36,113 bases of DNA, from positions 1-36,113 of the forward strand of contig VERF01000022.1 of assembly GCA_018882895.1 (NCBI GenBank). Direction: 5' to 3'. The position numbers and the translations under genes were made by a program. Source of the DNA: Candidatus Kapaibacterium sp. (GTDB lineage Bacteria; Bacteroidota; Ignavibacteria; Kapaibacteriales; Kapaibacteriaceae). The notes under the pieces are model-generated. The model saw only the letters and a program-made list of their open reading frames with translations. It was not told the origin of the DNA and did no database searches. Shown piece after piece: positions 1,348 through 32,813 of this stretch (position 1 is its first letter; the number at the start of each line of letters is the position of its first letter).

Positions 1348-2238
1348 ATGACGGCCAAACGTGACATCAACATCATAGAGACAATTGATGCCATGCAGAA
1401 AGTTTCCCGGGGGGCTTCTGCACAGGGGCTGACCATTGGCTGCGTGCCAACGATGGGATATCTGCATGAAGGGCATGCATCGCTGATCCGCCACGCTGCC
1501 CGGAACCATCCGATGGTAGTGGTGTCGATCTTCGTCAACCCAACGCAGTTCGGACCGAAGGAAGATTTCGCCCGATATCCGCGGGATCTTGAACGGGATC
1601 TCGAGATCGTGCGCTCTGCCGGCGGCACACACGTCTTTGCTCCCTCTGTCGAGGAGATGTATCCCGAGGGACCACGCTCAAGCATACATGTGTCGGGCGT
1701 CACCGATGTCCTTGAGGGAGCTTCAAGGCCCACGCACTTCGATGGGGTCGCCACGGTCGTGTCGCGCCTGTTCGAGGCGATGCTGCCCGACGTGGCCTAC
1801 TTTGGTCAGAAAGACTATCAGCAGACACTGGTCATCAGGCAAATGGTCGGTGCCTCGCCCCTTGCCGACGTGGCCCGTGTTCGCATCGAAACGCTCCCCA
1901 CCATGCGCGAAGAGGATGGCCTTGCCCGCAGCTCACGCAACATCTACCTTTCGGCCGATGATCGCCGCGATGCGCCCATCATCTATGCCGCTCTGAAGGC
2001 AGGCAGCGATCTTCTTGAAGGGGGCTGCCGGGATCTCGATCGCGTCGAGCAGACCATGCATGAAGTTCTCGGACAGGTTCCGAGGCTCAGTCTCGACTAT
2101 GCGGTGGCGGTAGATGCCGTTACGCTGCGCAGATCCGAGGCCCTCAGCGATGGATCGACCGTGGCGTTGCTCATTGCGGCCCGACTCGGCACGACGCGCC
2201 TGATAGACAACCTGCTTGTTACTCTGACGAGGCCGTAA
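1348..2238 (+). CDS. panC: Pantothenate synthetase (pantoate--beta-alanine ligase)
   Basis: A 296-residue protein that condenses pantoate and beta-alanine with ATP, the last step of vitamin B5 synthesis. The HIGH-like nucleotide motif is PTMGYLHEGH (about 34-43), followed by FVNPTQFGPKEDFARYPR (about 62-79), the YFGQKDYQQ block in mid-protein and the KMSKS-like REEDGLARSSRN loop. The reading frame is open back to 1318, but the residues before the ATG at 1348 do not resemble the family, so I place the start there. No other pan gene is adjacent. The last 20 bp overlap, tail to tail, the end of the acetyltransferase gene on the other strand. One AGGGGGC word lies at 2019-2025. Confidence 0.94.
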   Translation: MTAKRDINIIETIDAMQKVSRGASAQGLTIGCVPTMGYLHEGHASLIRHAARNHPMVVVSIFVNPTQFGPKEDFARYPRDLERDLEIVRSAGGTHVFAPSVEEMYPEGPRSSIHVSGVTDVLEGASRPTHFDGVATVVSRLFEAMLPDVAYFGQKDYQQTLVIRQMVGASPLADVARVRIETLPTMREEDGLARSSRNIYLSADDRRDAPIIYAALKAGSDLLEGGCRDLDRVEQTMHEVLGQVPRLSLDYAVAVDAVTLRRSEALSDGSTVALLIAARLGTTRLIDNLLVTLTRP

Positions 2239-2692
2239 GGTCGATGCGGTAGAGCATCCACTCGTTCATGAACGTAGCACCGCGGCGCTCATAGAAATCG
2301 CGCGCCAGTTTGTTCCAATCAAGTACCTGCCAGTCGACGCGTCCGCACCCACGGTTGCGGGCGGTCTGCACGACGTGATCGAATAAGGCAGAGCCAACGC
2401 CCCGACTTCGAGCGTCTTCGCGCACGAAGATGTCTTCGAGGTACATCGTCGGCAGCGCAAGAAATGATGAGTAGGTCTCCAGCGTGATGGCATAGCCACA
2501 GGCCATGTCCGCGTCATCGACAGCAAGAACCGCCTCGATGCGCGGCGCTGGGCCACAGATATCATTGAGCAACCGCGCACGCGCCTCGAGGCTTGGCGGC
2601 TGCAGATTCTCATACTCGGCCAGCATGTCGATCAGCGCCACCAGGTCGGCAAACCGCTCGGGTGTGACCGGGAGGATCGACACGGCACCCAT
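2219..2692 (-). CDS. GNAT-family N-acetyltransferase (diamine/thialysine acetyltransferase-like)
   Basis: A 157-residue single-domain GNAT protein. Motif A, which binds the acetyl-CoA pyrophosphate, is seen as YLEDIFVREDARSRGVGSAL (about 84-103) with the R-x-R-G-V-G loop. Motif B is visible as DWNKLARDFYERRGA (about 125-139). The LEDIFV strand and the VDWQVLDWN segment resemble SSAT-like polyamine or thialysine acetyltransferases, but the substrate cannot be read from sequence. Its ATG overlaps the dsbD stop codon by one base (TGATG), which implies translational coupling to dsbD. Its 3' end overlaps panC. Confidence 0.85.
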   Translation of the reverse strand: MGAVSILPVTPERFADLVALIDMLAEYENLQPPSLEARARLLNDICGPAPRIEAVLAVDDADMACGYAITLETYSSFLALPTMYLEDIFVREDARSRGVGSALFDHVVQTARNRGCGRVDWQVLDWNKLARDFYERRGATFMNEWMLYRIDLTASSE

Positions 2693-4707
2693 CAGAGCGC
2701 CTTTGACAGGAAGGCAATGAAGGTCGACGGGTCGGAGCGGTACTGCGTCTGGAACCCCGACTGGGCCACATAACTACCGTCGGACGTAAGCATCACGTAC
2801 AGGGGATTGGCCACCGTTCCGTACGATTTCAGGATGTTCTGATTGGTGATGTACGGCTCGGACTTCCGATCGGTGTAGAGCTGCACAAGGACGAACTTCT
2901 TGAACTGATCGACGACCTCGGGGCGAGGGAACACTTCCTTCTCCATCAGTCGACAGTTCACACAGGCAAATCCGGTGAAGTCGATAAAGATGGGCTTGCC
3001 CTGCTGCTTGGCCAGCTTCTTGGCCTTTTCGAGATCATTCAGCCAGGTCAGACCGGCATGCCCGGATTCCGAACCTGCGCTCGTCGGAACCACGGATCCC
3101 TGCATCGGAGGTGCTCCGTTCATTTCATCAAGAAGTTGATGATAGTTTTCCGGCGGCAGCAACGCTTCGAGATCGGCGGCAAGGGGCTTACCAAGCATCC
3201 CGGCCGTGAACCACATGGTGAATGTGGCAAATACGACGGCGAAAAGTGCGCGGATCCCTCCGACGCGTTCGACGGGCGTGTCAAGCGTCATACGGAACGT
3301 ACCAAGCAGGTACAACATGATCAACAGGCACACGCCAGCCCAGATTGCAAGGAAGACCTCACGTGGAAGCAGACCCAGACCGAAGATGAACTCGGCCGTG
3401 GAAAAGAACTTCACGGCCGCTGCGATCTCGAGGAAGCCCATCACAACCTTCAGGTTGTTCATCCAGCCCCCTGCCCGAGGCAAACGAACAAGCAGCGACG
3501 GGAACATCGAGAGGATGACGAATGGTATGGCAAATGCGGTCGCAAATCCGAAGGTCCCAACAGCAGGATACAGATAGTCGCCTCCCGAGGCACTCAGCAG
3601 AAGCGTGCCCACAAACGGCACCGTGCACGTGAACGAGGTAAGCGAGAAGGTTAGCCCCATCAGCAGGATGGAGAAGGTTCCATCACCCTGCGACTTCTTG
3701 TTCAACGCGTTCATGATCGAGACCGGCACCTGGATCTCAAACGATCCGAACAGGTTGAAGGCCAGGATCATGAACAGAAGACCAATACCGAGATTCATCC
3801 ACGGATTGGCAGCCAGATCCTGAACAGCCGTACCGCCAAAGACCACCGATGCCACGATGCCGACGGCTGTGAATGTTGATATGATGCCGAGGCCGAACAG
3901 AGCACTGTCGCGCATACCCGAGCCGCGATGCTTCTCGTGTCGCTTGGTGAAGAAAGAAACCGTGATCGGGATCATCGGGAACACGCACGGCGTCAGGAGA
4001 GCAAGAAAACCCACGCCCATAGCATAAAGGAAGAAGCTGAATAGTCCTTTGCGCTTTTCGCCTTCGAGTTCGCTCTGAGCATCTTCGACGACCGGGGCCG
4101 ACGAGGTTGCGGCCGAGACGGTGCCGCCTTGCGTTGAAGACGTCGCCGACGCTGCATCTGACGTATCGGCACTACCGCTCGCCACGCCAGTGATGACAAC
4201 ACCGACGTTCTGCGGCATGTCCTCCGACGGCAGGCAGGCCGACGTGTCGCACAGCTGCATGGTGACCGTTACCGAAGCCTTGTGCGAACCCACCGGCAGG
4301 GTGGCTGCCGCACGCACGGGCACGGCGATCTCGACCGAGCCCGAGAGCTCCTCAACGGTGGTCTCCCAGGTCTTGTCGAAGGCCGAGTGAGCCCCCTTCA
4401 GGATACGGGGCTTACCAGCAAGCTTTAGGGTGTTTGACGGGCCAACCGAGATGACCGTCGCATCCGGACCCAGTCCATCCGGGCCCACAGCCGGCGTCAG
4501 GCCGTAGCTGTGCCAATGCTTGGCGATGCGTGCCTTGACGATGATGGTGGCCGTATCACCGGCCTTGAGCGAGCATGCCGGAATTGGCTGAAAGGCGATC
4601 TTATCCTTGGCCGACGGCATTTGTGCCGAGACGCTTGCCGCCACTGCGGCAAGAAGAGCGAAGACCGACATCAGCACCCAGGCTGAACGCAAGTAAAACG
4701 TACGCAC
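2692..4707 (-). CDS. dsbD: Thiol:disulfide interchange protein DsbD
   Basis: Carries reducing power from cytoplasmic thioredoxin across the inner membrane to periplasmic proteins. The frame gives 671 residues from the GTG at 4707. It has a signal peptide, an N-terminal DsbD-alpha/DsbC-like domain, a Ser/Thr/Ala linker, about eight membrane segments and a C-terminal thioredoxin-like domain. Numbered from this start, the three cysteine pairs of the relay are all present: C153/C158 (periplasmic), C241 and C361 (membrane; TPCVFP and FTCTVP), and C582-VN-C585 (thioredoxin). The frame is open to a TTG at 4749, and an ATG exists at 4671. I prefer the GTG: it gives a signal peptide with two Arg in its n-region, and a TAGTTTTG promoter element covers the region just upstream. 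The GNAT gene is coupled downstream. Confidence 0.92.
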   Translation of the reverse strand: MRTFYLRSAWVLMSVFALLAAVAASVSAQMPSAKDKIAFQPIPACSLKAGDTATIIVKARIAKHWHSYGLTPAVGPDGLGPDATVISVGPSNTLKLAGKPRILKGAHSAFDKTWETTVEELSGSVEIAVPVRAAATLPVGSHKASVTVTMQLCDTSACLPSEDMPQNVGVVITGVASGSADTSDAASATSSTQGGTVSAATSSAPVVEDAQSELEGEKRKGLFSFFLYAMGVGFLALLTPCVFPMIPITVSFFTKRHEKHRGSGMRDSALFGLGIISTFTAVGIVASVVFGGTAVQDLAANPWMNLGIGLLFMILAFNLFGSFEIQVPVSIMNALNKKSQGDGTFSILLMGLTFSLTSFTCTVPFVGTLLLSASGGDYLYPAVGTFGFATAFAIPFVILSMFPSLLVRLPRAGGWMNNLKVVMGFLEIAAAVKFFSTAEFIFGLGLLPREVFLAIWAGVCLLIMLYLLGTFRMTLDTPVERVGGIRALFAVVFATFTMWFTAGMLGKPLAADLEALLPPENYHQLLDEMNGAPPMQGSVVPTSAGSESGHAGLTWLNDLEKAKKLAKQQGKPIFIDFTGFACVNCRLMEKEVFPRPEVVDQFKKFVLVQLYTDRKSEPYITNQNILKSYGTVANPLYVMLTSDGSYVAQSGFQTQYRSDPSTFIAFLSKAL

Positions 4708-6233: not shown

Positions 6234-7864
6234 GGCGCTTGCTCATCATCCTAGCGGCGATCTGCGCGCTCGCCGTCCGCGCCTCAGGTGCCCGAGATGA
6301 TGACTCAACCTACCAGCGTCTTTCCAAGGCGCTGGAGACGCTTAACGCAGTCTTTCGCGAGATCAATACTCGCTATGTCGACAATGTCAATCCTACCGAA
6401 CTGGCCGACGTTGGCGTGGGTGCCATGCTGGGGTACCTCGACCCGTACAGTGAGTACTATGTCGACGACGAGACCGACGAGATAGAGTCGGTGACCACCG
6501 GCTCGTATGTCGGCTTTGGCATCACGGTGTCCAATCCTGACAGTGTTCTGACCATCACCGACGTGCGTGAAGCCGGCCCCGCACGCAAGGCTGGCATTCG
6601 CATCGGAGATCAGCTCCTGGCCATCGACAGCGTGCGAACCGACACCATGCAGTCGGGAAACCTGCGCCCCCTTACAAGAGGTAGGGCCGGATCAACGTCG
6701 CGACTGAAGATCCTTCGTGAGGGTCGGAGCGACACGCTGGCGTTTGACTTGCAGCGTTCAGAGCTCGACCTTGCATCGATCGGATATTCCGATATGCTGC
6801 CAAACAACATCGGCTACATCAGCCTGGAGCGCTTCACTCGCAAGTCCGGCAAGGAACTTCGCCAGGCCATCGCCGCACTTCGATCTAGGTCAGCTCTCAA
6901 GGGGCTGGTGGTGGACCTGCGCGACAACCCGGGTGGACTTCTGCAAGCTGCGATCGACGTGGTGGAGACCTTCGTGCCCGTTGGCAGTCCGGTCGTTTCC
7001 ACGCGCGGACGCTATGACGACTCTTTCGTGGAGTATCGATCAGAGAACCAACCTGTCGAGCCCGATGTGCCACTGGTTCTGCTGATCAACGAGGGATCTG
7101 CAAGTGCCAGCGAGATCGTGGCAGGAGCCATGCAGGATCTGGATCGCGCAGTGGTCGTGGGCGTTCGTTCATTTGGCAAGGGGCTTGTCCAGTCCATCTT
7201 CCCGCTTGGCGAGAATGCCGTACTGAAGCTCACAACGGCACGATATTACACCCCCTCCGGCAGGTGCATCCAACGACGGAACTATCGCACGGATCGCGAT
7301 GAGCAGGACACCACCACATACCGGACCGCCAGGGGTCGCCGTGTTTCGGCAACGCATGGAATCGACCCGGACATGACGGTCTCGGATTCGCTCTTTTCGC
7401 CGCTCGTGGCCGAACTGATGGCCTCAAACCTCATTCAGAGATTCGCCACGCGCACGGCCGCCGGAATGACGTCGATCGAGACCGGATTCATGGCCGATGG
7501 CAAATTGCTCGATGGTTTCGTTCGATTCGTCGAACAGCAGCCGCCCCGCCGGCGCAGTCGCCTGCTCGAAGGTATCGCCGGCGTCGAGGAGCTGGCCTCC
7601 CAGAACAAGATGCCCAAATCGTCGATCTCCGCTTTGGAGGGGGCTCGCCGCTTATTCGAGCGCGACCAGATCCAGTCGATCAGACGCCAGCAGAGCGATA
7701 TCCTGCGCCTGCTCGACGTTGAGGTGCGCACACGCTTTGCAACAGCCAGGGAACGCGATAGATTTTTTGTTCCGCTCACACCATCGGTGAATTGTGCCAT
7801 TGAGATCCTGCGCACCGAGCAGTATCGGCAATTGCTGACATCACAATTGCCCGCAGATCACTAA
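6230..7864 (+). CDS. ctpA: C-terminal processing peptidase, S41 family (CtpA/Prc-like)
   Basis: A 544-residue periplasmic serine protease that cleaves substrates near their C-termini. It has a signal peptide (about 1-20, ending ASG), a leader helix region with LDPYSEYY (about 70-77), a PDZ domain (about 85-175, GSYVGFGITV onward) and the S41 core. Spacing against E. coli Prc suggests Ser292 (in EGSASASEI), Asp303 and Lys317 (in SFGKGLVQ) as catalytic residues. An unassigned, mostly helical C-terminal extension of about 150 residues follows. It starts by a 4-bp overlap with glyQS. Its stop codon is within the candidate rpoD promoter element. Confidence 0.92.
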   Translation: MRRLLIILAAICALAVRASGARDDDSTYQRLSKALETLNAVFREINTRYVDNVNPTELADVGVGAMLGYLDPYSEYYVDDETDEIESVTTGSYVGFGITVSNPDSVLTITDVREAGPARKAGIRIGDQLLAIDSVRTDTMQSGNLRPLTRGRAGSTSRLKILREGRSDTLAFDLQRSELDLASIGYSDMLPNNIGYISLERFTRKSGKELRQAIAALRSRSALKGLVVDLRDNPGGLLQAAIDVVETFVPVGSPVVSTRGRYDDSFVEYRSENQPVEPDVPLVLLINEGSASASEIVAGAMQDLDRAVVVGVRSFGKGLVQSIFPLGENAVLKLTTARYYTPSGRCIQRRNYRTDRDEQDTTTYRTARGRRVSATHGIDPDMTVSDSLFSPLVAELMASNLIQRFATRTAAGMTSIETGFMADGKLLDGFVRFVEQQPPRRRSRLLEGIAGVEELASQNKMPKSSISALEGARRLFERDQIQSIRRQQSDILRLLDVEVRTRFATARERDRFFVPLTPSVNCAIEILRTEQYRQLLTSQLPADH

Positions 7865-8881: not shown

Positions 8882-9430
8882 ATGAGCACATTCGACGAGT
8901 ATCTCGGCGTCGTCACGCGGTCCCACGGTCTTGACGGAACGATGGTCCTGACGGACGTGGTTGCCATGCCTCGCCCCCTCCTCAGAGGGTCCGAGGTTGC
9001 CATCGGGTATAGTCGCGATTTCACCACCGTGTATCAGGTGGAAGAGTTCAGCTCAATGCCGAATCGCACAACTCTCCGGCTTCGTAGCGTCACGACGGCT
9101 GAAGCCGTCACGCCATTGATCGACCAGGCCGTCTACGCTCGGTCGGCCGATGTCGGTATCGACCAATCACAGCGCTATCGCATCGGCGATGTCGAAGGCT
9201 GCAGTGTCTTCGACGAACAGGGCTCCCTGCTCGGAACAATATCCGACGTGTGGCTCATGCCTGCTAATGATGTGTGGGTTGTGACCGCCGACGGCGGACG
9301 AACGATCCCTCTGCCAGTCATCAACGACGTGGTCCTGAATGTAGATCTGCCGAATCGTCGCATCACGGTGCGCCTTCTGCCGGGCCTTGCCGATGTGGAT
9401 TCTGCGGAAGGAGAGCGCGATGACTCCTGA
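8882..9430 (+). CDS. rimM: Ribosome maturation factor RimM
   Basis: A 182-residue protein that assists 30S subunit maturation. The N-terminal barrel opens with YLGVVTRSHGLDGTMVL (about 7-23), matching the family pattern G-x-hydrophobic-x-x-x-HG-x-x-G. The C-terminal PRC-barrel begins near GCSVFDEQGSLLGTI, contains NDVWVV, and ends in IPLPVINDVVLNVDL. The ATG at 8882 is chosen over an in-frame TTG at 8870. The end overlaps trmD by 11 bp. In most bacteria rimM sits between rpsP (S16) and trmD-rplS (L19); neither ribosomal gene is here, and the upstream neighbour is rpoD. Confidence 0.9.
   Translation: MSTFDEYLGVVTRSHGLDGTMVLTDVVAMPRPLLRGSEVAIGYSRDFTTVYQVEEFSSMPNRTTLRLRSVTTAEAVTPLIDQAVYARSADVGIDQSQRYRIGDVEGCSVFDEQGSLLGTISDVWLMPANDVWVVTADGGRTIPLPVINDVVLNVDLPNRRITVRLLPGLADVDSAEGERDDS
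9408..9413 (+). promoter_or_regulatory. Shine-Dalgarno for trmD
   Basis: AAGGAG lies inside the rimM coding region, 6 nt before the ATG at 9420. It decides the trmD start over the in-frame upstream ATG at 9387, which has no comparable site, and it shows that Shine-Dalgarno sequences are used in this genome. Confidence 0.7.
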
Positions 9431-10130
9431 GGCGCCGATCCGTATCGATATCGTCTGCGTCGTCCCACAGATCCTTGAGTCATTCATCTCAACGTCGATC
9501 GTCGGACGTGCCCGCCAAAAGGGGCTTGCCAGCATCACGTTGCATAACCTGCACGATTACGCCACCGATGCCTTCCGGCATATCGACGACACGCCATACG
9601 GCGGCGGTGCCGGAATGGTGATTCAGTGCGATCCCGTGTTTCGGTGCATCGAAGCGCTTACTGCCCAGCATGACTACGATGAGATCATCTTTCTGTGTCC
9701 GGAAGGGCACGTCCTTGATCAGAAGACCTGCAATGACCTCTCGATCAAGCGATCGATCATCCTGCTGTGTGGACATTACAAGGGCATCGACCAAAGGATC
9801 AGGGATCTGCTGGTAACGCGAGAGATCTCCGTCGGTGACTATGTGCTGACAGGGGGCGAGATCGCCGCCGCAGTTCTTACCGATGCCATCGTTCGGCTCG
9901 TTCCCGGCGTTGTGGGTGATGCCGAAAGCGTTCTTGAGGATTCCTTCATGAACGGTCTTCTGGATGCGCCACTGTACACCAAACCGGCTGACTTCCGGGG
10001 ACACAAGGTGCCGGATGTTCTATTGAGCGGCAATCATGCCATGATTCGCCAGTGGCGCAAAGAGCAGGCGCTCGAAAGAACGCGCCTGCGCCGGCCGGAC
10101 CTTCTGTCGGGTCAGGAGGACACCCCATGA
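9420..10130 (+). CDS. trmD: tRNA (guanine-N1)-methyltransferase (position 37)
   Basis: A 236-residue SPOUT-family enzyme making m1G37 in tRNA, which prevents frameshifting. Visible: the DDTPYGGGAGMV block (about 56-67), LLCGHYKGIDQR (about 115-126) and ISVGDYVLTGGE (about 136-147), which form the trefoil-knot SAM site and active site. Further along are the DSFMNGLLDAPLYTKP and VPDVLLSGNHAMIRQWR blocks. The start is set by the AAGGAG site. It overlaps rimM by 11 bp and the downstream hydrolase by 4 bp. The rplS gene that often follows trmD is missing. Confidence 0.95.
   Translation: MTPEAPIRIDIVCVVPQILESFISTSIVGRARQKGLASITLHNLHDYATDAFRHIDDTPYGGGAGMVIQCDPVFRCIEALTAQHDYDEIIFLCPEGHVLDQKTCNDLSIKRSIILLCGHYKGIDQRIRDLLVTREISVGDYVLTGGEIAAAVLTDAIVRLVPGVVGDAESVLEDSFMNGLLDAPLYTKPADFRGHKVPDVLLSGNHAMIRQWRKEQALERTRLRRPDLLSGQEDTP
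10114..10119 (+). promoter_or_regulatory. Shine-Dalgarno for the alpha/beta hydrolase
   Basis: AGGAGG near the end of trmD, 7 nt before the ATG at 10127. It supports that start rather than an upstream in-frame start that would read through trmD. Confidence 0.7.
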
Positions 10131-12809: not shown

Positions 12810-12855
12810 GGTCGCCCCTTAGCAGATGTTCGACGCACCGCCATGCGCGGTCGCG

Positions 12856-23082: not shown

Positions 23083-24059
23083 AGAGGTACCACGACGGCG
23101 AATGGGAACAGCAAAACGAAACGCGGACCCGAGTCAGAAAACTCCAGTGTAGGCCCCGGAAGCCGAATGTAGTTCAGTGCTTGGCGCACATAGTTGAGCA
23201 CTCCGACGCGCGATTCAGGGATGATCTTGAGCCAGTCGTAGTCAATGCCGATCAAAGCACGGGAGCGCACCGGAAGCATCGGTCCGTCCGGCAGTGAGCT
23301 GCGAACCTCGTAATCGCGACATCCATACCCAACGCTGATGGTCATCCAGTCGGGCCAATACTCGGCCCACTTCACCGGAAGCATGTTCTCGACATTGAAG
23401 TTCAGCCAGAACACCGTGCTGTTATAGTCATCAAAGATGGTCAGGGGGCGCTCGGTAGTTGCCCGTTCCCCTGTCAGCTGCGCGGGCATGTAACTCCATC
23501 GTGGCGTCACGTTCTGCAAGGAAGGGACGAGGTTTCGCGCCGCGTAGAAAACTGCACCGGTAGTGTTGGCTATCTGGTCGGAGGGTGAAAAACCCCACGT
23601 TGTGGCGTAGCCATCTTGGATCTCGATGACGGTCATGTATGCAAGCCCCATGGCAGAGCCCAGCCATGTGGACGTTTCATAATTGAAACCGCACTCCATG
23701 AGCGCATCGCCCATTATCGTGCTCATCGTAAAGCCGGTAAAGAAGTGCCCGGCCTTGTCTGCATAACGGGCGTAATCGCCATCCTCTTGGATCTTGAACG
23801 ATCCGGAGCGCTGCCACCAAGAGCTCGACATCTGCGCCTGAAGGGCAACGAAGAGACCAGTATAGGCAGCGCTGATGGCCAGCGTAGGAACGGTCTGGAT
23901 ATCAGTGATACGCCGCGGGGTACTTCCCGTGAACGTATACCGAGGACGTCCGGCATCGGTGAATTCGTGTCGAAAGAGATACAGAGAGTCATCCGGCGCC
24001 GCGTGTGCCGCACCGATCGATGCCAGAAGAAGGATCGCGATTGCGACTCTACAGCGCAT
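23079..24059 (-). CDS. DUF2279-family exported protein
   Basis: A 326-residue protein with signal peptide about 1-20 (MRCRVAIAILLLASIGAAHA). The core motif YADKAGHFFTGFTMSTIMGD, with several short hydrophobic segments after it (GSAMGLAYMTVIEIQDGY, a W-G-F-S-P-S-D element), matches DUF2279, a family of unknown function related to YfiM-type periplasmic proteins. The C-terminal part (about 210-326) is beta-rich and ends in hydrophobic, aromatic-bounded strands. An outer-membrane location is possible but not shown. It overlaps atuA by 11 bp and the glycosyltransferase by 4 bp, so it is inside an operon. Confidence 0.75.
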   Translation of the reverse strand: MRCRVAIAILLLASIGAAHAAPDDSLYLFRHEFTDAGRPRYTFTGSTPRRITDIQTVPTLAISAAYTGLFVALQAQMSSSWWQRSGSFKIQEDGDYARYADKAGHFFTGFTMSTIMGDALMECGFNYETSTWLGSAMGLAYMTVIEIQDGYATTWGFSPSDQIANTTGAVFYAARNLVPSLQNVTPRWSYMPAQLTGERATTERPLTIFDDYNSTVFWLNFNVENMLPVKWAEYWPDWMTISVGYGCRDYEVRSSLPDGPMLPVRSRALIGIDYDWLKIIPESRVGVLNYVRQALNYIRLPGPTLEFSDSGPRFVLLFPFAVVVPL

Positions 24060-25407
24060 CGACCTGAACGCGCATTGTCACCACGCGCTTGTCGAGCAAT
24101 GCCGGGAAATAGGCCACCACGTCACTTGGCTTGGGCCTTCCACCGGAGAACCCCGTCACGCTTGGTGGACCTGTCAGGATCAGCGGAGCGATCTCCTTGG
24201 AAAATGCCTCAACGGCCTTGCGGTCACGCCCGCGCACGCCGATGCGCATCATCACTTCGTTCGGCTCAATCTGCGGCGCTATGGCTCCATGGCAGGCATT
24301 CATGCCAACATATTCCGTGCGTACCTCATCGAAGGAGAGCCCCAGCATGTCGAGTCGTTGACGGAGGATCTTGTCAGCAGCCTGTGCCTTTTCGTAGGCA
24401 TCCGGAGCTGAATATGTTAGCGACCCAAATGCAACATATCCATCGAGATAGGACGCGCTGACCTTGTAGGTTGGAGTATAGGGGCGCCCCTTTATTCCAA
24501 ACACTCGCACGCGATCGTTTCCGAGGTCTTCGAGATGGATCGACGAGAAGTCGGCAATACAGTCAGGGGTGATATAGGCCTCAGGATCGCCGATCTCGTA
24601 CATCAGCTGTTCGCTTACCGTTTCGCGACTGACGAGTCCACCGGTGCCTTCATGCTTTGTCACGACAAAGCTACCGTCAGGGTAGGCCTCAATGATCGGA
24701 AAACCAACGTCGGCCATGTTGGGCAGCGATCTCCAGTCACCAAGGAAGTTGCCGCCGCTGGCCTGAGCACCGCATTCGTTGATATGTCCGGCAACCGTGC
24801 CGGCGGCCAGCAGATCCCAGTCCTGCTCGCCCCATCCAAACTCATGGATCATCGGAGCCAGCGTAAGCCCGGTGTCTGTTGTGCGTCCGGTGATGATGAT
24901 CTGAGCTCCTGCACGAAGAGCCTCAACAACAGGCCAGGCGCCGGTGTAGACGTTGGCGCTCAGAAGCTTGTCCTTGACGTTTGCGATCGGCTCACCGGTC
25001 TCCATGTGCCGAAGCTCATGACCTGAGTCCACCAGCGTAGAGATCTCGGGGAGTATATCATCGCCCAGAACGACGCCGACCTTCAGACCCGTGATACCCA
25101 GCTTGCGTGCAACCTCAAAGATCTTGTCGCGCGCAGCCAGAGGATTGACGCCTCCGCCATTCGTGATCAGCGTGATCCCCTTTTCGACGATCGTCGGCAG
25201 GATCTGCTCACACACGTCGATGAGATCTTTGGCATATCCGAGTTCAGGATTGCGCATGCGCTGCTTCTGCAGGATCGACATGGTGACTTCTGCCAGATAG
25301 TCCATGACGAGGTAGTCGATCGGCCCTCTGGTGACTTGTTCGTAGGGGGCTTTCTGGAGATCCCCCCAGAATCCTTGACCGGAAGCGATGCGGATAGATG
25401 ACTTCAT
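24049..25407 (-). CDS. AtuA-like (DUF1446) family protein
   Basis: A 452-residue protein consisting essentially of the DUF1446/AtuA domain. It opens SIRIASGQGFWGD and contains YLVMDYLAEVTMSIL, TLITNGGGVNPLAA, GAQIIITGRTTDTGLTLAPM and HINECGAQASGGNFLGD, which I recognise as family signatures. In Pseudomonas citronellolis AtuA belongs to the acyclic terpene utilisation cluster, but its biochemical role is not established, and no geranyl-CoA carboxylase or acyl-CoA dehydrogenase genes are next to this copy. Cytoplasmic, no signal peptide. Preceded by a membrane-protein gene (14-bp gap), overlapped by the DUF2279 gene. Confidence 0.85.
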   Translation of the reverse strand: MKSSIRIASGQGFWGDLQKAPYEQVTRGPIDYLVMDYLAEVTMSILQKQRMRNPELGYAKDLIDVCEQILPTIVEKGITLITNGGGVNPLAARDKIFEVARKLGITGLKVGVVLGDDILPEISTLVDSGHELRHMETGEPIANVKDKLLSANVYTGAWPVVEALRAGAQIIITGRTTDTGLTLAPMIHEFGWGEQDWDLLAAGTVAGHINECGAQASGGNFLGDWRSLPNMADVGFPIIEAYPDGSFVVTKHEGTGGLVSRETVSEQLMYEIGDPEAYITPDCIADFSSIHLEDLGNDRVRVFGIKGRPYTPTYKVSASYLDGYVAFGSLTYSAPDAYEKAQAADKILRQRLDMLGLSFDEVRTEYVGMNACHGAIAPQIEPNEVMMRIGVRGRDRKAVEAFSKEIAPLILTGPPSVTGFSGGRPKPSDVVAYFPALLDKRVVTMRVQVDAL

Positions 25408-25421
25408 GATTTACCGAGTCG

Positions 25422-25997
25422 TTACCGGCTGTTGACCGGTGTTTTGGAGAGGATCGTAGCCGTGCTCGATTGCCGCAGACGCTGCTCGAGACGTGCCCGT
25501 TGGAACGTGAAAATACGAAAGGCAACGGGCTCGCCGTGCGCGTGGAGCACGCGCACGGTGGTCCAGAGCGTGCTACCGATGAGCTCGACGCCGGTCATAT
25601 CCGAATACTGGATCACGATGGGGCCGGGCCTAACGATCGGGCGCACAACCAGAGCCAGCGTACGCACGCGCGTACGCTGAAAATGCAGTCTAAGCATGAT
25701 CTGGGTCATGAGCACGCCCCCTATCAGCGGCAAAGCATACCGAAACACCGTCGGCGGCTCGATCCTGTAGCAGACCATTGCCACGCCCACCGTTGCTAGA
25801 ACGCCGCAGAGCGACAGTATGACGCCCGGAGCACTGTAGAGCAGCAGAAGGTCTTCGCCGGAAAGCTTTCGGCGCAGCTCAAGATTGTCCAGAATTTGAC
25901 GAAATGCCAGGGCCCCAAAGAGCAAAACGCCGAACGCGAACGCCACATAAGCGCCGTGCTGCAGGATGGTCCATGGGTCGAGATACGATATTGTCAT
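25422..25997 (-). CDS. Small membrane protein of unknown function
   Basis: A 191-residue protein with three predicted membrane segments (about 16-34, 56-77, 87-103), then about 85 cytoplasmic-looking residues with a beta-rich stretch (VRTLALVVRPIVRPGPIVIQ, about 111-130) and a basic end. The layout resembles small PH-domain/DUF membrane proteins, but I do not recognise a family. First gene of the long minus-strand run and divergent from rodZ across 87 bp. An imperfect promoter element (TAAAATTG, minus strand, 26012-26005) sits almost at its start. Confidence 0.65.
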   Translation of the reverse strand: MTISYLDPWTILQHGAYVAFAFGVLLFGALAFRQILDNLELRRKLSGEDLLLLYSAPGVILSLCGVLATVGVAMVCYRIEPPTVFRYALPLIGGVLMTQIMLRLHFQRTRVRTLALVVRPIVRPGPIVIQYSDMTGVELIGSTLWTTVRVLHAHGEPVAFRIFTFQRARLEQRLRQSSTATILSKTPVNSR

Positions 25998-26084: not shown

Positions 26085-27101
26085 ATGGATCAGCTCTCGC
26101 AGCGACTCAATCAGGAACGCGTTCGTAGCGGCCTTTCAACCTTCGATCTTGCACAGAGAACGAAGATACGGGAGCCGTATATCCAAGCGATCGAGAAGGG
26201 TGACTACAACGTTCTGCCGGCCGTTTACGTTCGCTCGTTCATCAGAACCATGGGCAATGAGTTAGGTGTTCCGCAGGGAGAGATCAACCGACTGATCAAA
26301 CAGTGTCTCGACTCAGATGAGTCGTCAGGTTCCGGAGCATTGCAACGCGACGCCCAGTCGGCCCCTTCCTCACGCAATGCCGCATCAACGGAATCCTCAG
26401 ACCCGCTGGCCCCGATCATCGAGTTTGTGCAGACTTTACGGTCGAGCATCGATGTTACAAACCTGATGGCCAACCGCCGAAGGGTGATGATCATCATCGG
26501 CTCATTGATCGTTGCTCTCATTGCCGTCTGGTTCTTCTTTGGCCGCTCGGCTGGGAACTCCGATGGCGGCATCCCTTCAGAGATCGTCGACATTTCCAGT
26601 CCGGTCGCCGAAGACAGTTTGATTCTCACAGCCACGACGACGGACACGGCCGAACTGACCATGACGATTGACGGCACGAGGTATCAGAAGTTCATTGTCT
26701 TCCCTGAGACCGAGTACCGCTGGAGTGCCATGAAGAGGTTCACCGTAAGCAACATCTTCAATGCCGGTGCGATCGAGTTTGCGCGTGATGGCAAGCCCCT
26801 TCCCCGATATGGGAAAAGGGGCGAGGTGCTCCGCGAACTAGTGATCACGCGCACCGAAGTGGTAGCGTCGAACACCAGTACGAAGATGATCACACCACCA
26901 TCGGATCCGGAGCGGGCCCGACGTGATTCGATCGTCGAACAGCAACGTCGGGATTCGATCCGTGCCGTGCGTCGCAAGGAGCGCCTGCAAAGTCGCGAGT
27001 TGGCCAAGAAGAAGAAACCCGCCGCCAAGCCGGAGCGTCAACGCCGGGCACGGGCCGAAGAGCCCCCTATCCTGCGCACGCCACCACGAGGTGTGCGGTA
27101 G
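26085..27101 (+). CDS. rodZ: RodZ-like cell-shape protein (HTH, single TM, DUF4115)
   Basis: A 338-residue bitopic protein. Cytoplasmic N-terminal helix-turn-helix (about 4-70: LSQRLNQERVRSGLSTFDLA, then REPYIQAIEKGDYNVLP), Ser-rich linker, one membrane segment (about 134-153, VMIIIGSLIVALIAVWFFFG), then a periplasmic DUF4115-like beta domain (about 178-245, with NIFNAGAIEFARDGKPLP). In other bacteria RodZ links MreB to the elongation machinery. Unusual here is a long C-terminal tail (about 275-338) rich in Arg and Lys with repeated RRDSI and KKK runs. The start at 26085 is chosen because the HTH begins there; the longer frame upstream is unlike the family. No mreBCD genes in the window. Converges on the T9SS gene with 15 bp between stops. 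Confidence 0.82.
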   Translation: MDQLSQRLNQERVRSGLSTFDLAQRTKIREPYIQAIEKGDYNVLPAVYVRSFIRTMGNELGVPQGEINRLIKQCLDSDESSGSGALQRDAQSAPSSRNAASTESSDPLAPIIEFVQTLRSSIDVTNLMANRRRVMIIIGSLIVALIAVWFFFGRSAGNSDGGIPSEIVDISSPVAEDSLILTATTTDTAELTMTIDGTRYQKFIVFPETEYRWSAMKRFTVSNIFNAGAIEFARDGKPLPRYGKRGEVLRELVITRTEVVASNTSTKMITPPSDPERARRDSIVEQQRRDSIRAVRRKERLQSRELAKKKKPAAKPERQRRARAEEPPILRTPPRGVR

Positions 27102-27116: not shown

Positions 27117-30100
27117 CTATCGAATTAGTGTCATCACTTTCGAGTAGACCCTGCCGCCGAGCGTAAGGCGCGCCACGTATGTGCCGCTTGGTGCCGCAGT
27201 TCCGTCCGATCGACGTCCGTCCCATTCCACTGGCGATGTTCCCAAACGTGCAGGCGCGGCCTCGTCGACGAGTACTGCAACAAGCGCACCCATCAGGTCG
27301 ATTATCTCGAATCGGACCGGAACTGGATCTTGTACCACGTAATGGAACACCGCCTGACCGGCTGAGGGATCCGGGAAGGGGCCTGACAGCACCGACATCC
27401 GCGCCTCGCGTAGGTGCACATTGACGACGTGTGAGTGTGATAATGTACCGTCAATATCGACCTGCCGCAGCCGATATTCATACGTGCTTCCTTGCAGAAC
27501 CTCGCGGTCAGTGTATGAGTAATCACGAGTGACCTCGGAATTTCCCGCACCCGGCACGAATCCGATGGTCTGCCATGGCCTCAGCGTATCGGCTGCCCCA
27601 TTCCCAGTGGCAACTGAATCCCGAGCCTCACCTGAACGGGCTGGATCACTGACCATGCGCCGCTCAATGAAGAACCCTGAGTTGTCCTGCTCGGTAGCAG
27701 TCTGCCAGAAGAGATCCACGGCGAGTTCACGCCCTCGCCCGTCGAAGTGGACGAGCTCTATGGGGGAAAAATTATTGCAGTATTTGGATGGTTGCGTCAT
27801 ACCGAAATATGGTCTGAGAAGCGGAATCCAGGAGCCCCGAGTGAACGTCTCAAAGCCGCCAACAGTACCCTTGGCATCGAGATGTGGGAATAATGGAGCG
27901 TTATTGTTCGGTACAAACGGCTTCCAGTCTGCGCCATTTGCTGTGCCGCTGTAGGCAAACAAGGCATTGTTTGGCACTTGTCCATTTTGGAGCTGTACTC
28001 TGAACCTCCGATCTACCAGCAGGCTAACCGAGCTGTCACGAGGCGCTCCGGGTTCAGAAAAAAGCGTGGTAACCATTCCCATGGCGCCGGCAGATGCGCC
28101 AAGTTCGAATCCCTTGGGACCGATTTGTCGAACCGATAACCAGTATCGCCCCCGATTGAGCCGAATCGTCTTCGGGAGTAAGTAGGTGCCATAGCGCCCG
28201 AAGTGCGGTCCTGAATCCTGGCTGAGATCATCTTCTCCGCGGTTGCGCACCATCACCGAAGACGTTACAGGCTGTGAACCCGGAAAGCCATTTACATCAC
28301 GGTAAATGGCGAACTCGATCTGATCGGGGCTCTTGTTGCGCTCAGCCCAGAAGGCTTGATACCCCAGGATGTCTTCAGTCGGCATCTCAAATCTCATGGC
28401 AATGCGTCCACCCGGAGCGTTGAGACCCGCTCCGCTGACTCCAGAGAACACTGAAGACTCTACATCGTTCGTTGGATTCGCTGGATTATCCTCGTAGGCG
28501 ATTGACGGGCCCAAGGGCAAACGAAAGGTCTTAACTAGATCATCGACTTCGAAACACCCGTAACTAAAAGTGTTGACCCTTGCACCGACAAAACCCGATT
28601 CTACGCACCGCAGATCGATTGAAGGCAGAAAAGCCCATACGTTTGCCTTCGACGGTCGCCAAGATAATCGAAATTGGCTAATATAGATGGGATTTGAAGC
28701 GCAAGTGGGGAAATCAGTGTTGTCTTTGCAAAAAGTTGCAGAAATATTTGTGTTGAGCCAACCATGCCAACTGTATGCCGCCAGACGCATTCGGATTGAT
28801 ACGCTATTTAACATCGAACTAGGAACCATTGTGTACGGCTGTATCAACCAGAGGTTGCTCACCTCCATATAACTTTCGCAACTATCGTAGAGGACCTTTA
28901 CGTTGTCGATATAGAAGTTATCCTCGTCGTCAACCGGGCCGGGTCTATCGGTATTCATGAGGCAGCTAGCACGCAACCGGAAACGAAAGTTGCGGGCTCC
29001 TTGTCCGACCCACTTCAGCACAGTATCGGGAATCGGGATGATGAGTTTAAAGAATTCAGCATCCTTGCCATCATCGTAGAAATCCTCCCGAATGCCCCCT
29101 TTGTTGGGAAGTGAATTGTTCCGAAGCTGCTTGTTGTATTCTATCTCGTCAAATCCTCGAGCATACCCTCCTCCGCCCCATATCTGATATGGCTGCACAT
29201 ACTCGGTTTTCAGACCCTGATAGTCGAGCAACCACTCTTTGACGTTCGTAATGCCATTGACGCCATCATCCGATGGGCGAGCAAACTCGATAAGAAGCTT
29301 GTCGGGCTCGCGATATGTTGTCACGTACCCGTCTGCCTTCATCATACCCACTCGGTGCTCGGGCCCCAATAGGCGCAGATCGGAGAACCCCCGTGCGATG
29401 CTCGGCAGTTTTCCCGCTCGCTGATAGGAAATTGATAGCACAGGGCGCTTCCCAGCAGTGAGATCGATCGGAAACGAACGGATCTCGTCGCCCCCCCACG
29501 CACCTGGTGCAGGAATCTCTGATCCGTCATGCGTTACACGATTCAGGCGCAAGACCGGTGAATTGAGCCGCATTTCAGGGGCGTTCTGTGCTCGATGTTC
29601 ACCCATCGGAGGAAGCGGATTATGAGTGTTGAGTGCGCCGTCAACAACTTCCGCATGATGGTTCACCCACATGAGAACTGACGGCACGGCTACACCGTTG
29701 ATCACGTGGAACTCGCCCCCTTTGTCCGCGAAATCACGCAGCCTACGCATACTAAAGAGAGCTACTCCGGATGTATCGTCGAAGGGCCACTGATCCCTGA
29801 TTGGTTCGCCACTGTTAGTAAGGGCATCAACAGTGATCCTGCACGTCAGCGGCCCGATGTTCTTATCGACAAGGGGATTGGGTTCAAATGGAGGAAATAC
29901 CACCTTGATGAACTCATACGGTAGCACCGCCGTGCCAGGGGGCTGGAATGGATTGTTTCTTCCACTTGCGTCACACCGAAACACCTGCGACAGATTGGTG
30001 TCGCGCAGAGCCGCATCAGTAACATCGCGAGTGCTTCGGTAGATGACCTCGCCCGTGGCCTGGTTGATGAACTGGCACTGCACCCGCAGGTTCATACCAT

Positions 30101-31691
30101 TGGTGATATAGTTTGCCCCCTGAGGCCCCTGTACATCATTGGCAAGGCGCTGTACGATGGCGACCGGTTGCACCGCACCCAGCCGCTGATCGCCTGCAAG
30201 GATCTCATAGCCACGCACCGAGTCTGCAGGAACGACTCTGCTGAACGCTAGGCTCGCCTCCGAACGGCGCTCTCGAATGCGATACGATGTGCTTACGCAG
30301 CGTGCTACGTTTCGGTGCTGTTTGAAGCCGATCGCCAGAAAATCCTTCGGCACATCGCCGACCGTAGCGGCATCACCACCGGCTCGCACGCCCCCTGCCG
30401 GATCCGTCGATACATTATACAGATACTCGGTGCTCTGCAGATACTTTGGAGCGCTATAGTCAAGCTCGGTAGATGTCGGCAGGGGGCTTGGAAACCCCGA
30501 CCAGTTTAGGCGTCGCGACGGACCGGCAATGCCGATGGTGGAATTGCATCTCACCCATGTCGAGGCCGGAAGCGGATTGGGCGAGGCCGCAGGGGCCCTA
30601 CCGTGAAACCGTTCGTAGTGGATCGTCAGCGAACTGTCGTTTCGACAAAGAATCACCTGCATGGAAAATCGATAATGCTCACCCGACGTTGGGCGGTTGT
30701 CAGGAGCAAAGTCCACCGTCTGTGTTGTTTGATTTCGAACGCGTGCCTGCTTCGTACCGATCGGTGTCAGGTTCACGAAGTAGATCACCAGTGTGTCGTT
30801 TGAGGCAGAACGACGGAAGTAGACTCGCGAAAAGTCGTCAACAACTCCGGTCGATGGGTCTCTGACAGACACCTGAAGATCGTCCCAGGCAGGTGCGATG
30901 ATCTGCGGCATGACGCTACCCCAAATGCTGCTCAGGCCGGCCGAATCGAGCATGGAGTTTGTCCTGGACCTCATGCCACTTTCCGGGTTCGATGGTTTGC
31001 CTCCGCAGGCAACCTGCTGCAAGCCCCAATCGTCTGCTGTCGCGTCTAGTAGCCCGTCACCGGAGCGCGTACGTATGTCGTCCGACTGCGGATCGTACGC
31101 TGACATGGTACCCGGTCTGACCTCGCTGCGTCTGCGCGAAACTGGAAATCCGAACTGGTCAACATCATAGAAGTAGCGCCGATTCGAGAAAGCAATCAGT
31201 CCATTGGTGGAGACGTAGAACGAATCCTGTCGCACACCATTGAATGCAAAGGGGAATCCGATTGCGATTGGGCCGGCAAATGCATTGTCTGTCGAGTCCT
31301 GCTGATTGCCGGGATTTCGAAAGTAGGCCCAGCCACCGGTCTGATTCTGCCGTGGATCCGTCCAGTGCTGGCTCGGCTTCTGATTCGGACCTGAGAGGAT
31401 GCGAAACCACGAGGTTTGATTGAACAGAGTATCACGAAACGGCGCAGCAAGCGGTCGCCAGACGTCAGATGATCGTTCATCCGAATCGACGAAGTAATAC
31501 CCCGTCGAGATTGCCGGATGTGTTCTCGGATTAAGACCCGATGATTGGAATGGTCGCGGAGTCGACGCAAAAGGGCCGTGCGTTGTGCTTGACCTCTGCA
31601 CACGATCGGCATCTTTGTCAGTGAGCGCGTGCGCCGATACGTGCGCAACGATCGCTAGGATGATAATAATAGGAGCGGACAACGCAGGCAT
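27117..31691 (-). CDS. Giant T9SS cargo protein, paralogue 1
   Basis: A 1524-residue secreted protein. Signal peptide about 1-20 (MPALSAPIIIILAIVAHVSA). A region near 120-330 (IGFPFAFNGVRQDSFYVSTNGLIAFS) resembles beta-sandwich or nidogen-like surface modules. After a segment with VQPVAIVQRLANDVQGPQG it is collinear with the partial protein encoded at 32893-36113 right to the end. Both share a DDGKDAE block and a DDEDNFYIDNVK motif that may bind calcium. The last 90 residues (FPDPSAGQAVFHY ... VEWDGRRSDGTAAPSGTYVARL ... KVMTLIR) are a type A T9SS sorting domain. A stretch encoded at about 28515-28860 is replaced relative to the paralogue and holds six of its cysteines. Function unknown; probably a surface-layer or adhesin-like protein. 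A strong Shine-Dalgarno and promoter element precede it. Confidence 0.88.
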   Translation of the reverse strand: MPALSAPIIIILAIVAHVSAHALTDKDADRVQRSSTTHGPFASTPRPFQSSGLNPRTHPAISTGYYFVDSDERSSDVWRPLAAPFRDTLFNQTSWFRILSGPNQKPSQHWTDPRQNQTGGWAYFRNPGNQQDSTDNAFAGPIAIGFPFAFNGVRQDSFYVSTNGLIAFSNRRYFYDVDQFGFPVSRRRSEVRPGTMSAYDPQSDDIRTRSGDGLLDATADDWGLQQVACGGKPSNPESGMRSRTNSMLDSAGLSSIWGSVMPQIIAPAWDDLQVSVRDPSTGVVDDFSRVYFRRSASNDTLVIYFVNLTPIGTKQARVRNQTTQTVDFAPDNRPTSGEHYRFSMQVILCRNDSSLTIHYERFHGRAPAASPNPLPASTWVRCNSTIGIAGPSRRLNWSGFPSPLPTSTELDYSAPKYLQSTEYLYNVSTDPAGGVRAGGDAATVGDVPKDFLAIGFKQHRNVARCVSTSYRIRERRSEASLAFSRVVPADSVRGYEILAGDQRLGAVQPVAIVQRLANDVQGPQGANYITNGMNLRVQCQFINQATGEVIYRSTRDVTDAALRDTNLSQVFRCDASGRNNPFQPPGTAVLPYEFIKVVFPPFEPNPLVDKNIGPLTCRITVDALTNSGEPIRDQWPFDDTSGVALFSMRRLRDFADKGGEFHVINGVAVPSVLMWVNHHAEVVDGALNTHNPLPPMGEHRAQNAPEMRLNSPVLRLNRVTHDGSEIPAPGAWGGDEIRSFPIDLTAGKRPVLSISYQRAGKLPSIARGFSDLRLLGPEHRVGMMKADGYVTTYREPDKLLIEFARPSDDGVNGITNVKEWLLDYQGLKTEYVQPYQIWGGGGYARGFDEIEYNKQLRNNSLPNKGGIREDFYDDGKDAEFFKLIIPIPDTVLKWVGQGARNFRFRLRASCLMNTDRPGPVDDEDNFYIDNVKVLYDSCESYMEVSNLWLIQPYTMVPSSMLNSVSIRMRLAAYSWHGWLNTNISATFCKDNTDFPTCASNPIYISQFRLSWRPSKANVWAFLPSIDLRCVESGFVGARVNTFSYGCFEVDDLVKTFRLPLGPSIAYEDNPANPTNDVESSVFSGVSGAGLNAPGGRIAMRFEMPTEDILGYQAFWAERNKSPDQIEFAIYRDVNGFPGSQPVTSSVMVRNRGEDDLSQDSGPHFGRYGTYLLPKTIRLNRGRYWLSVRQIGPKGFELGASAGAMGMVTTLFSEPGAPRDSSVSLLVDRRFRVQLQNGQVPNNALFAYSGTANGADWKPFVPNNNAPLFPHLDAKGTVGGFETFTRGSWIPLLRPYFGMTQPSKYCNNFSPIELVHFDGRGRELAVDLFWQTATEQDNSGFFIERRMVSDPARSGEARDSVATGNGAADTLRPWQTIGFVPGAGNSEVTRDYSYTDREVLQGSTYEYRLRQVDIDGTLSHSHVVNVHLREARMSVLSGPFPDPSAGQAVFHYVVQDPVPVRFEIIDLMGALVAVLVDEAAPARLGTSPVEWDGRRSDGTAAPSGTYVARLTLGGRVYSKVMTLIR

Positions 31692-31702: not shown

Positions 31703-31738
31703 CAGATTGTCATTGAGTAAAGTACTATCTACATCGAC

Positions 31739-31746: not shown

Positions 31747-31755
31747 TCGCGTCTT

Positions 31756-31768: not shown

Positions 31769-31826
31769 TTACTCTTTTATTCAATACGCTCACCTCGCTC
31801 CTGGCAGCATCCCGAGAAGCCGGTTG

Positions 31827-32813
31827 CTATCGATCAGCACCCACGCTTATCTGCGCTCTGACGACATCATGCAGTCGAATGACGCCGACCAGTATGTTGG
31901 CATCGACCACCGGCAAGACTCCTATCTGACGTTGCCGCGACTCCATCGTATGGAGGGCCTTGTGCAGAGTTGCTGTTGGCGATATCATGGTGGGCTTGGA
32001 GGTCATCACCGATGCCACAGAGCCGGCAGAAAGGTCAACCCCGCGCTCGACGAGTCGACGTACGTCTCCGTCGGTCAATATCCCGAGCAGAGCGCCCCGT
32101 TCATCCACCACGCATACGATTCCGAGAGCGCGGGCATCAAGCTCGTGGATCGCCCCCTCAATGGTCGCCTCTGGTGCAATCTGCGGTACGGACGCTCCAG
32201 TGTGCATGTGCTGTGCAACAACCTGCGTAAGAAGCGAACCAATAGCTCCCTGAGGATGCGTAGAAGTAAGCACGTTAACCGAGTCGGGCATCTGATGAGA
32301 CACCGACATCACCAACAGATCCGCCAATACCAGCGCTGTAGTTGTGCTCGCTGATGGCAGCAGGTTCATTCGATCGAACTCGCGCTCGATCGGCGCCAGC
32401 AGCGATATATCCGCCCTATCTGAGATCGTGCTTATCCGTTGAGAAGTGATGCTGACAATCCTGACGTGATCCCGCTGAATCACGTCGAGGAGTTGAATCA
32501 GCTCCCGAGTCTCGCCACTCTTCGAGAACAGCACGAGCAAGGTTCCCGGTTTGACGGCACCAAGATCGCCATGCAGTGCATCTGTGCTGTGCATGAAGCG
32601 TGCAGTGGCGCCCAGACTTGTCAGCGAGGCGGCAAACTTCTGCGCCACAAAGCTCGACTTACCGACGCCCGACGTGACGATTTGCTGAGCTGATAGTATT
32701 GCGCTGACCGCGGCCTGATAGGTCTCGTCAAGGTGTTCTTCGAGCAGATCAAGAGCACGTCGCTGACGTCTCAGTGCTTCCTTGACATCGTCAGAAAGGG
32801 GGCTTGTATTCAT
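31827..32813 (-). CDS. kdsD: Arabinose-5-phosphate isomerase (KdsD/KpsF/GutQ family)
   Basis: A 328-residue protein with an N-terminal SIS domain (about 35-180) and two CBS domains (about 205-325). It should convert D-ribulose-5-phosphate to D-arabinose-5-phosphate for KDO synthesis. Family motifs: TSGVGKSSFVAQKFAASL (47-64, first loop), ALHGDLG (79-85), LFSKSGET (95-102, sugar-phosphate binding), ASTTTALVLAD (155-165), and HPQGAIGSLL (186-195), which contains the His expected in the active site. The frame is open to an ATG at 32855, but that ATG and the next codons lie in the loop and one arm of the terminator of the upstream gene, so I start at MNTSPL. No kdsA/B/C or lpt gene is adjacent. 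Confidence 0.87.
   Translation of the reverse strand: MNTSPLSDDVKEALRRQRRALDLLEEHLDETYQAAVSAILSAQQIVTSGVGKSSFVAQKFAASLTSLGATARFMHSTDALHGDLGAVKPGTLLVLFSKSGETRELIQLLDVIQRDHVRIVSITSQRISTISDRADISLLAPIEREFDRMNLLPSASTTTALVLADLLVMSVSHQMPDSVNVLTSTHPQGAIGSLLTQVVAQHMHTGASVPQIAPEATIEGAIHELDARALGIVCVVDERGALLGILTDGDVRRLVERGVDLSAGSVASVMTSKPTMISPTATLHKALHTMESRQRQIGVLPVVDANILVGVIRLHDVVRAQISVGADR

Follow-up and report, generated by a model that had tools for sequence, protein, structure and literature searches.

What does a word that recurs about once per kilobase along a contig of Candidatus Kapaibacterium sp. signal to the cell, if it signals anything? The stretch analysed here, the 36,113 nucleotides of contig VERF01000022.1 (hereafter the window), is one entire contig of a 2,565,285-base genome in 131 contigs, labelled G000; its relatives carry other G-numbers. 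A reading of the window made from its letters alone had singled out AGGGGGCK (K, G or T) as a candidate genomic signal sequence. The proposal is well supported by the genome, in which 1630 copies were counted (831 on the + and 799 on the - strand) against 89 of the same word read backward (42 and 47), and the excess extends beyond the window. In full, the signal reads A-R-GGGG-C-K (R, A or G). ARGGGGCK is almost certainly one maintained genomic signal with a strand-wise spacing: a second copy on the same strand is avoided within about 1-3 kb, whereas a copy on the opposite strand is not. This avoidance on one strand, with none between strands, is the new observation.

In the window, the recount gave 32 copies of AGGGGGC, 15 on the + and 17 on the - strand, with G or T as the next base in 30 cases, exactly as the sequence-only reading had counted, and A in the other two. 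AGGGGGCK itself occurs 30 times; 100 dinucleotide shuffles gave 1.59 copies on average and at most 7. For the base preceding GGGGGC, the earlier figures for A (32), G (2) and T (0) were recovered, but CGGGGGC occurs four times and not three. The same reading had also held the form with four G to be ordinary, which fails when A precedes. AAGGGGC is present in 17 copies in the window, and in a 288,097-base sample (20 stretches and the window, GC content 0.569), which served for the 7-mer and codon statistics of this genome, it is the second most over-represented 7-mer under an order-2 Markov model (188 observed vs 27.6 expected, 7-fold), behind AGGGGGC (275 vs 19.7, 14-fold). AAGGGGC is therefore the other half of the signal. 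A single-base scan showed that A1, G3 to G6 and C7 are required, that position 2 is A or G and that T is preferred to G at position 8. Defined in this way, the word has 2916 copies in the 2.57 Mb of the genome (1479 forward, 1437 reverse; control, 197), or approximately 1.1 per kb.

The flanks are weak, with an upstream consensus of about tGGn-ARGGGGCK. The G at -3 and -2 is common to both word forms and to sense and antisense copies in G000, and upstream G was seen in all seven genomes examined (0.49-0.67 at -3 and 0.49-0.79 at -2). The downstream flank depends on the lineage, with C at +10 and +11 in G000 and G113, and G in G059. From +9 to +14, G059, G228, G086 and G377 differ from G000, G113 and G027, the upstream part being common, which looks like dialects. 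When the sites were masked in the dense genomes, words with a single mismatch in the core were near expectation (ratios 0.44-1.57), and a partial enrichment (2.5-4.4) remained for words with a pyrimidine at position 2 or with A or C at position 8. The same masking showed no surrounding cloud of decayed sites with one mismatch, in a test of little power.

As runs of G are common at 57% GC, the word might be an artefact of composition or codon usage, or a trace of a repeat family or of terminator hairpins, an explanation to which we give practically no credence. Chance and composition were rejected by the shuffles, the backward-word controls and the Markov model. Codon usage was rejected by shuffling synonymous codons gene by gene, with gene calls from our own script: in the coding sequence of G000, ARGGGGCK was in excess in both orientations (sense, 186 vs 17.3; antisense, 152 vs 23.1), and the backward words were not. 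The sequence-only reading had named a Markov or codon-aware model as what might explain the word away, and neither does. All six frames are occupied, by 43 to 69 copies each, and the distribution along genes is flat (G000). A long repeat family was rejected, since little sequence is common past ~4 bases upstream and ~11 bases downstream (G000), as were terminator hairpins, close inverted pairs being few; the near-expected counts of core single-mismatch words also speak against an artefact. The density in coding and intergenic DNA, respectively, was 1.32 and 0.88 per kb in G000, 1.33 and 2.23 in G113, 0.73 and 0.83 in G027, and 0.44 and 0.58 in G059.

The arrangement of the copies was analysed in stretches of 13 enriched genomes. 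Neighbouring sites were on opposite strands in 739 cases and on the same strand in 384 (p 1.7e-26). Relative to a Poisson expectation, same-strand pairs in the six dense genomes were reduced to 0.24 at 50-100 bp, 0.62 at 200-300 bp and 0.74 at 600-800 bp and reached ~1 beyond 1 kb; in the seven other genomes the depletion was stronger (0 to 0.72 in all bins up to 1.25 kb). Opposite-strand pairs scattered near or somewhat above 1. Within 100 bp, 11 same-strand and 65 opposite-strand pairs were found, where permutation of the strand labels within stretches expects 36.5 same-strand pairs (standard deviation 4.3); within 1000 bp the counts were 372 and 648, with 495 same-strand pairs expected (standard deviation 15). 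The hazard of meeting the next same-strand site rose with distance, over 2 kb from 0.13 to 0.86 per kb (dense genomes) and over 5 kb from 0.03 to 0.34 per kb (sparse genomes), and the coefficient of variation (CV) of the per-strand spacing was 0.62-0.88. In a separate check on unused stretches of 12 genomes (171,885 bases), the neighbours were again 30 same-strand and 73 opposite-strand (p 2.7e-5), and the pairs within 500 bp 6 and 33. Individually, the alternation was not significant in G401 (same:opposite 12:11), G140 (11:15) and G395 (5:7). Four control words showed no comparable alternation (19:27, 29:34, 1947:1829 and 1120:981, the first two of low copy number). An arrangement in convergent or divergent pairs was rejected, with 162 convergent and 192 divergent pairs within 500 bp (p 0.12).

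The two forms also repel each other: AGGGGGCK and AAGGGGCK stood within 500 bp on the same strand in 79 cases and on opposite strands in 176 (p 1e-9), whereas words with one wrong core base showed no repulsion (ratios 0.87-1.06). This cross-repulsion, absent for core mismatches, indicates one signal in two forms that serves each strand separately. ARGGGGCC, outside the word as defined, does avoid ARGGGGCK (30:56, p 0.007); neither an A in position 8 nor a pyrimidine in position 2 gave significant repulsion, and that of ARGGGGCG with itself (28:36) was not significant either. Because same-strand copies avoid each other and opposite-strand copies do not, each strand appears to be read separately, and we infer from this spacing that whatever reads the word sees a single strand at a time.

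The chromosome-orienting KOPS (FtsK-orienting polar sequences) and AIMS (architecture imparting sequences), read by FtsK or in segregation, are likewise dispersed, G-rich, non-palindromic octamers. Unlike them, ARGGGGCK has no clear replichore polarity by local GC skew, either in G000 (155:137) or in G059 (104:81), a complete chromosome of 2.84 Mb sampled at 20 stretches of 20 kb, in agreement with the lack of a visible replichore strand bias noted from the window alone. A replichore-oriented word was rejected on these two ratios, and the excess of opposite-strand neighbours is also contrary to a polar word, so that a KOPS- or AIMS-like role is very improbable. HIP1 and other palindromic octamers are over-represented genome-wide as well; ARGGGGCK differs from them in being non-palindromic, with two strands that behave independently.

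The ARGGGGCK site listing of the window comprises 43 sites, given below; lines ending in AGGGGGCK are those that also enter the AGGGGGCK count.

1115..1122, + strand, AAGGGGCG
1856..1863, - strand, AAGGGGCG
2019..2026, + strand, AGGGGGCT, AGGGGGCK
3181..3188, + strand, AAGGGGCT
3465..3472, - strand, AGGGGGCT, AGGGGGCK
4390..4397, - strand, AGGGGGCT, AGGGGGCK
6665..6672, - strand, AGGGGGCG, AGGGGGCK
6899..6906, + strand, AAGGGGCT
7178..7185, + strand, AAGGGGCT
7638..7645, + strand, AGGGGGCT, AGGGGGCK
8972..8979, - strand, AGGGGGCG, AGGGGGCK
9519..9526, + strand, AAGGGGCT
9851..9858, + strand, AGGGGGCG, AGGGGGCK
11200..11207, - strand, AGGGGGCG, AGGGGGCK
12813..12820, - strand, AAGGGGCG, intergenic
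13314..13321, + strand, AGGGGGCG, AGGGGGCK
13901..13908, + strand, AAGGGGCT
14069..14076, + strand, AGGGGGCT, AGGGGGCK
14337..14344, - strand, AAGGGGCT, gene edge (called intergenic)
14974..14981, - strand, AGGGGGCT, AGGGGGCK
16013..16020, - strand, AGGGGGCT, AGGGGGCK
16366..16373, + strand, AAGGGGCT
17453..17460, + strand, AGGGGGCG, AGGGGGCK
17909..17916, - strand, AGGGGGCG, AGGGGGCK
18325..18332, + strand, AGGGGGCG, AGGGGGCK
18864..18871, + strand, AGGGGGCG, AGGGGGCK
19778..19785, - strand, AGGGGGCG, AGGGGGCK
21334..21341, + strand, AGGGGGCT, AGGGGGCK
22002..22009, + strand, AGGGGGCG, AGGGGGCK
22837..22844, - strand, AGGGGGCT, AGGGGGCK
23443..23450, + strand, AGGGGGCG, AGGGGGCK
24485..24492, - strand, AAGGGGCG
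25344..25351, + strand, AGGGGGCT, AGGGGGCK
25715..25722, - strand, AGGGGGCG, AGGGGGCK
26794..26801, - strand, AAGGGGCT
26816..26823, + strand, AAGGGGCG
27061..27068, - strand, AGGGGGCT, AGGGGGCK
29714..29721, - strand, AGGGGGCG, AGGGGGCK
29937..29944, + strand, AGGGGGCT, AGGGGGCK
30389..30396, - strand, AGGGGGCG, AGGGGGCK
30481..30488, + strand, AGGGGGCT, AGGGGGCK
32151..32158, - strand, AGGGGGCG, AGGGGGCK
32797..32804, + strand, AGGGGGCT, AGGGGGCK

The last of these sites ends at 32804 and none lies beyond, in agreement with the earlier remark that the last large gene (paralogue 2) is without the word. The window also encodes very large proteins (14343-18629 and 27117-31691) beside housekeeping genes, with a subtilase carrying FG-GAP repeats and a FlgD-Ig-like domain match below the cut-off. 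The closest named matches of one window protein, with 47-52% identity, carry the labels Chlorobi, Chlorobiota, Ignavibacteria and Bacteroidetes, and a Por secretion tail domain in the window is consistent with these.

The word marks a clade. Among 395 genomes of the phylum, AGGGGGCK reached 491 to 1672 copies, 11- to 25-fold over the control, only in eight of the ten genomes of the same family, and by eye none of the other 385 had at least 100 copies at more than about 4-fold. In a wider family survey, ARGGGGCK was 3- to 20-fold above the backward control in 20 of 23 genomes, namely 11/11 of the own genus, 6/6 of g2 and single members of g171, g173 and g174. It was at or near the control in both genomes of genus g3 (173 vs 275 and 287 vs 411) and in the one g172 genome (261 vs 201). 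Within the own genus, the copy number ranges more than 4-fold. This on-off pattern is as expected for dependence on a trait that can be lost. In eight enriched genomes that were sampled, the own included (GC 0.475-0.602), AGGGGGC and AAGGGGC were among the leading 7-mers, with two exceptions in rank: words of a long repeat array rank higher in G059, and AAGGGGC is fifth in G228.

Individual sites are conserved as well. The ARGGGGCK sites of G000 were identical in orthologues at 17 of 52 positions in G113, 14 of 27 in G400 and 7 of 17 in G399, against a background identity of any 8-mer of 9.4%, 18.8% and 10.8%, respectively, and were thus kept 2.8 to 3.8 times as often; any ARGGGGCK form was kept at 22, 19 and 8 of these positions. 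In eleven more distant relatives, sites that were still the motif ranged from 8/30 (G401) down to 0/18 (G407). The result is weak there: conservation was not above background in G395 (0/12), G407 and the unenriched G105 (1/25), and barely so in G406 (1/15 still motif) and G377 (3/23). Either selection or biased gene exchange maintains the word.

For g3, a replacement word was sought and rejected: AGGGCGGC and AAGGCGGC looked enriched in G101, but under the codon-shuffle null no word came near the signal of G000, and the pooled neighbours of ARGGCGGC in g3 were 40 same-strand and 49 opposite-strand. In a ComEC tree, the g3 genome G101 falls among the outgroups and is separated from the enriched genomes (98/98); the G105 row of this tree, a fragment whose branch is very long, is unreliable. 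A RecQ tree did not resolve the placement of g3. ComEC (in the own genome on contig 15, L215) diverges fast, with 48% identity between G000 and G113 compared to 77% for RecQ.

One type of reader that would account for the strand-wise spacing, the lack of polarity and the indifference to genes is a repair or replication system other than Chi, for example one in which the word directs nicking or strand discrimination in mismatch repair and is needed on each strand within ~1 kb. The near-absence of the word in 3 of the 23 relatives is awkward for a core repair signal, and we know of no such non-palindromic system; we consider this explanation improbable.

The signal shares features with two better-known classes. 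It behaves like an uptake sequence in its copy number, strand balance and on-off distribution, and like Chi in its strand-by-strand spacing; membership of either class fails on one tested defining feature, the pilus machine for the former and polarity for the latter. The DNA uptake sequences (DUS) of Neisseriaceae and uptake signal sequences (USS) of Pasteurellaceae similarly occur in thousands of copies at ~1 per kb, with a non-palindromic core and weaker flanks, strand-balanced, mostly within genes, clade-specific and varying among species. For one known uptake word, AAGTGCGGT, 14 of 295 genomes of the order of Pantoea had by eye more than 1200 copies in strand balance (for instance 638:632); these are presumably Pasteurellaceae. 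The differences are that ARGGGGCK shows no consistent preference for intergenic DNA, that hairpins of paired copies are few, that two markers of the type IV pilus are missing and that the repulsion is confined to the same strand. The sequence-only reading had favoured an uptake signal over Chi or KOPS. This stands as a resemblance, in density and lack of clear polarity; the missing pilus markers and the same-strand repulsion tell against it, and the true word, ARGGGGCK, had been missed.

Our leading explanation, which we put forward tentatively and at somewhat less than even chance, is that ARGGGGCK is a strand-read self-DNA signal of a natural transformation without pili. The word would be a mark of 'self', as are the uptake sequences of the two families above, but it would be recognised on single-stranded DNA, at or after import by ComEC or during the protection of the incoming strand or its loading for recombination, with no pilus reading double-stranded DNA. 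Every imported strand would then require its own copy, strands bearing a copy would enter or recombine more often, and this bias could push the density to ~1 per kb in any gene, frame and direction. In Riemerella, of the same wider group, transformation needs ComEC, DprA, ComF, RecA and four proteins of unknown function, and the abstract of the report names no pilus gene (PMC8459023). The look-up of ComEC proposed with the first reading of the window found it in 18 of 18 genomes tested, enriched or not.

Several points weigh against a self-DNA signal. To our knowledge, no competence phenotype has been described in these bacteria. No PilT was found in 10 family genomes (E<=0.001) and no prepilin N_methyl domain in 11 genomes, the receptor search being one for pilin markers only; these absences make a ComP-type pilus system unlikely, and uptake by a type IV pilus was rejected on these two markers only. 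The unenriched genus g3 has ComEC too, and the single-strand stage of recognition is our own conjecture. Finally, uptake in Haemophilus influenzae is reported to be independent of orientation (PMC1939737), and a second USS within 100 bp to give no gain (PMC1939737, PMC7811141). Ordinary uptake of this kind would predict a strand-blind repulsion, unlike that of ARGGGGCK.

Ranking close behind the self-DNA signal is a Chi-like word, which we regard as possible but rather doubtful. In this explanation, AddAB, degrading DNA from a broken end, would recognise the word on one strand and be switched by it to recombination; since a site in the correct orientation is required on both sides of a break, the two strands would be provisioned independently, and the strand-wise redundancy is what a directional reader predicts. 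ARGGGGCK is short, G-rich and non-palindromic, as are the known Chi words of RecBCD and AddAB. The own genome encodes AddA (UvrD helicase and PDDEXK) and AddB (PDDEXK, with weak matches to AddB models). Across the 23 family genomes, AddB was matched in 22 and the AddA query in all, G377 only through weak UvrD-type stretches. Unpolarised Chi candidates have been reported in some species when polarity was dropped as a criterion (PMC8022716), although leading-strand polarity, which ARGGGGCK does not clearly have, is a criterion in the same source.

In a 400-kb portion of Escherichia coli K-12, Chi (83 copies) is only 2.5-fold enriched and is polar, with 65 leading and 18 lagging copies given the positions that we take to be those of the origin and terminus. 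Its same-strand pairs below 1 kb are not depleted (13 vs 12.7 expected), so that the even per-strand spacing and strong enrichment of ARGGGGCK are not features of E. coli Chi. A list of 100 Pantoea Chi sites, on the + strand only and hence not used for polarity, is clustered (CV 1.31). Moreover, AddAB is retained in the unenriched G101, G105 and G396 (g3 and g172), the two g3 genomes being without a replacement word, and AddB was not found in the assembly of the strongly enriched G113, where an assembly gap is possible. A protein that joins a PDDEXK nuclease to an SF1-type helicase, in the manner of Dna2, was also noticed in the own genome (contig 90, L212 3-2810, - strand), in G113 (L217 3723-6536, + strand) and in relatives.

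Few words act as genome-wide signals, and every known one (Chi, DUS/USS, KOPS) opened a field. ARGGGGCK marks most of a bacterial family at the density of uptake sequences, with no detectable pilus of the kind that reads them, and its strand-wise spacing would be the evolutionary footprint of a reader that takes one strand at a time. The spacing test can be applied to Chi, DUS and USS, to separate signals read in the duplex from those read in single strands. It is possible, although we hold it slightly less firmly than the transformation reading as such, that the word represents a third kind of genomic signal, a mark of self-DNA recognised on single strands by bacteria in which no type IV pili are detectable, with copies spaced evenly and independently on each strand. 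If so, it would be the first uptake-type sequence known to us outside Neisseriaceae and Pasteurellaceae, with another mechanism of reading; we know of none from a literature search that was not exhaustive. Among the titles listed, none dealt with ARGGGGCK, with uptake words of this group or with an even strand-wise spacing, and the titles of listed papers that contain AGGGGGC point to human or viral topics.

Other repeats were noticed in the same genomes. The reverse strand of G059 (1960001-1980000 of C1, L133) carries 159 copies of GGCTACTAGAGCAGATCT with a period of 65-66 bases, an unusually long array that is CRISPR-like. In the stretches of G377 (L174-L178), AATGGGGA, TGGGGAAT and similar words are strongly over-represented in the sample, probably owing to a tandem repeat. 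Contigs 6 (L099 15171-15262) and 90 (L115 1032-1088) of the own genome contain short tandem arrays around TAGTAACT, mostly with a period of 14 bases.

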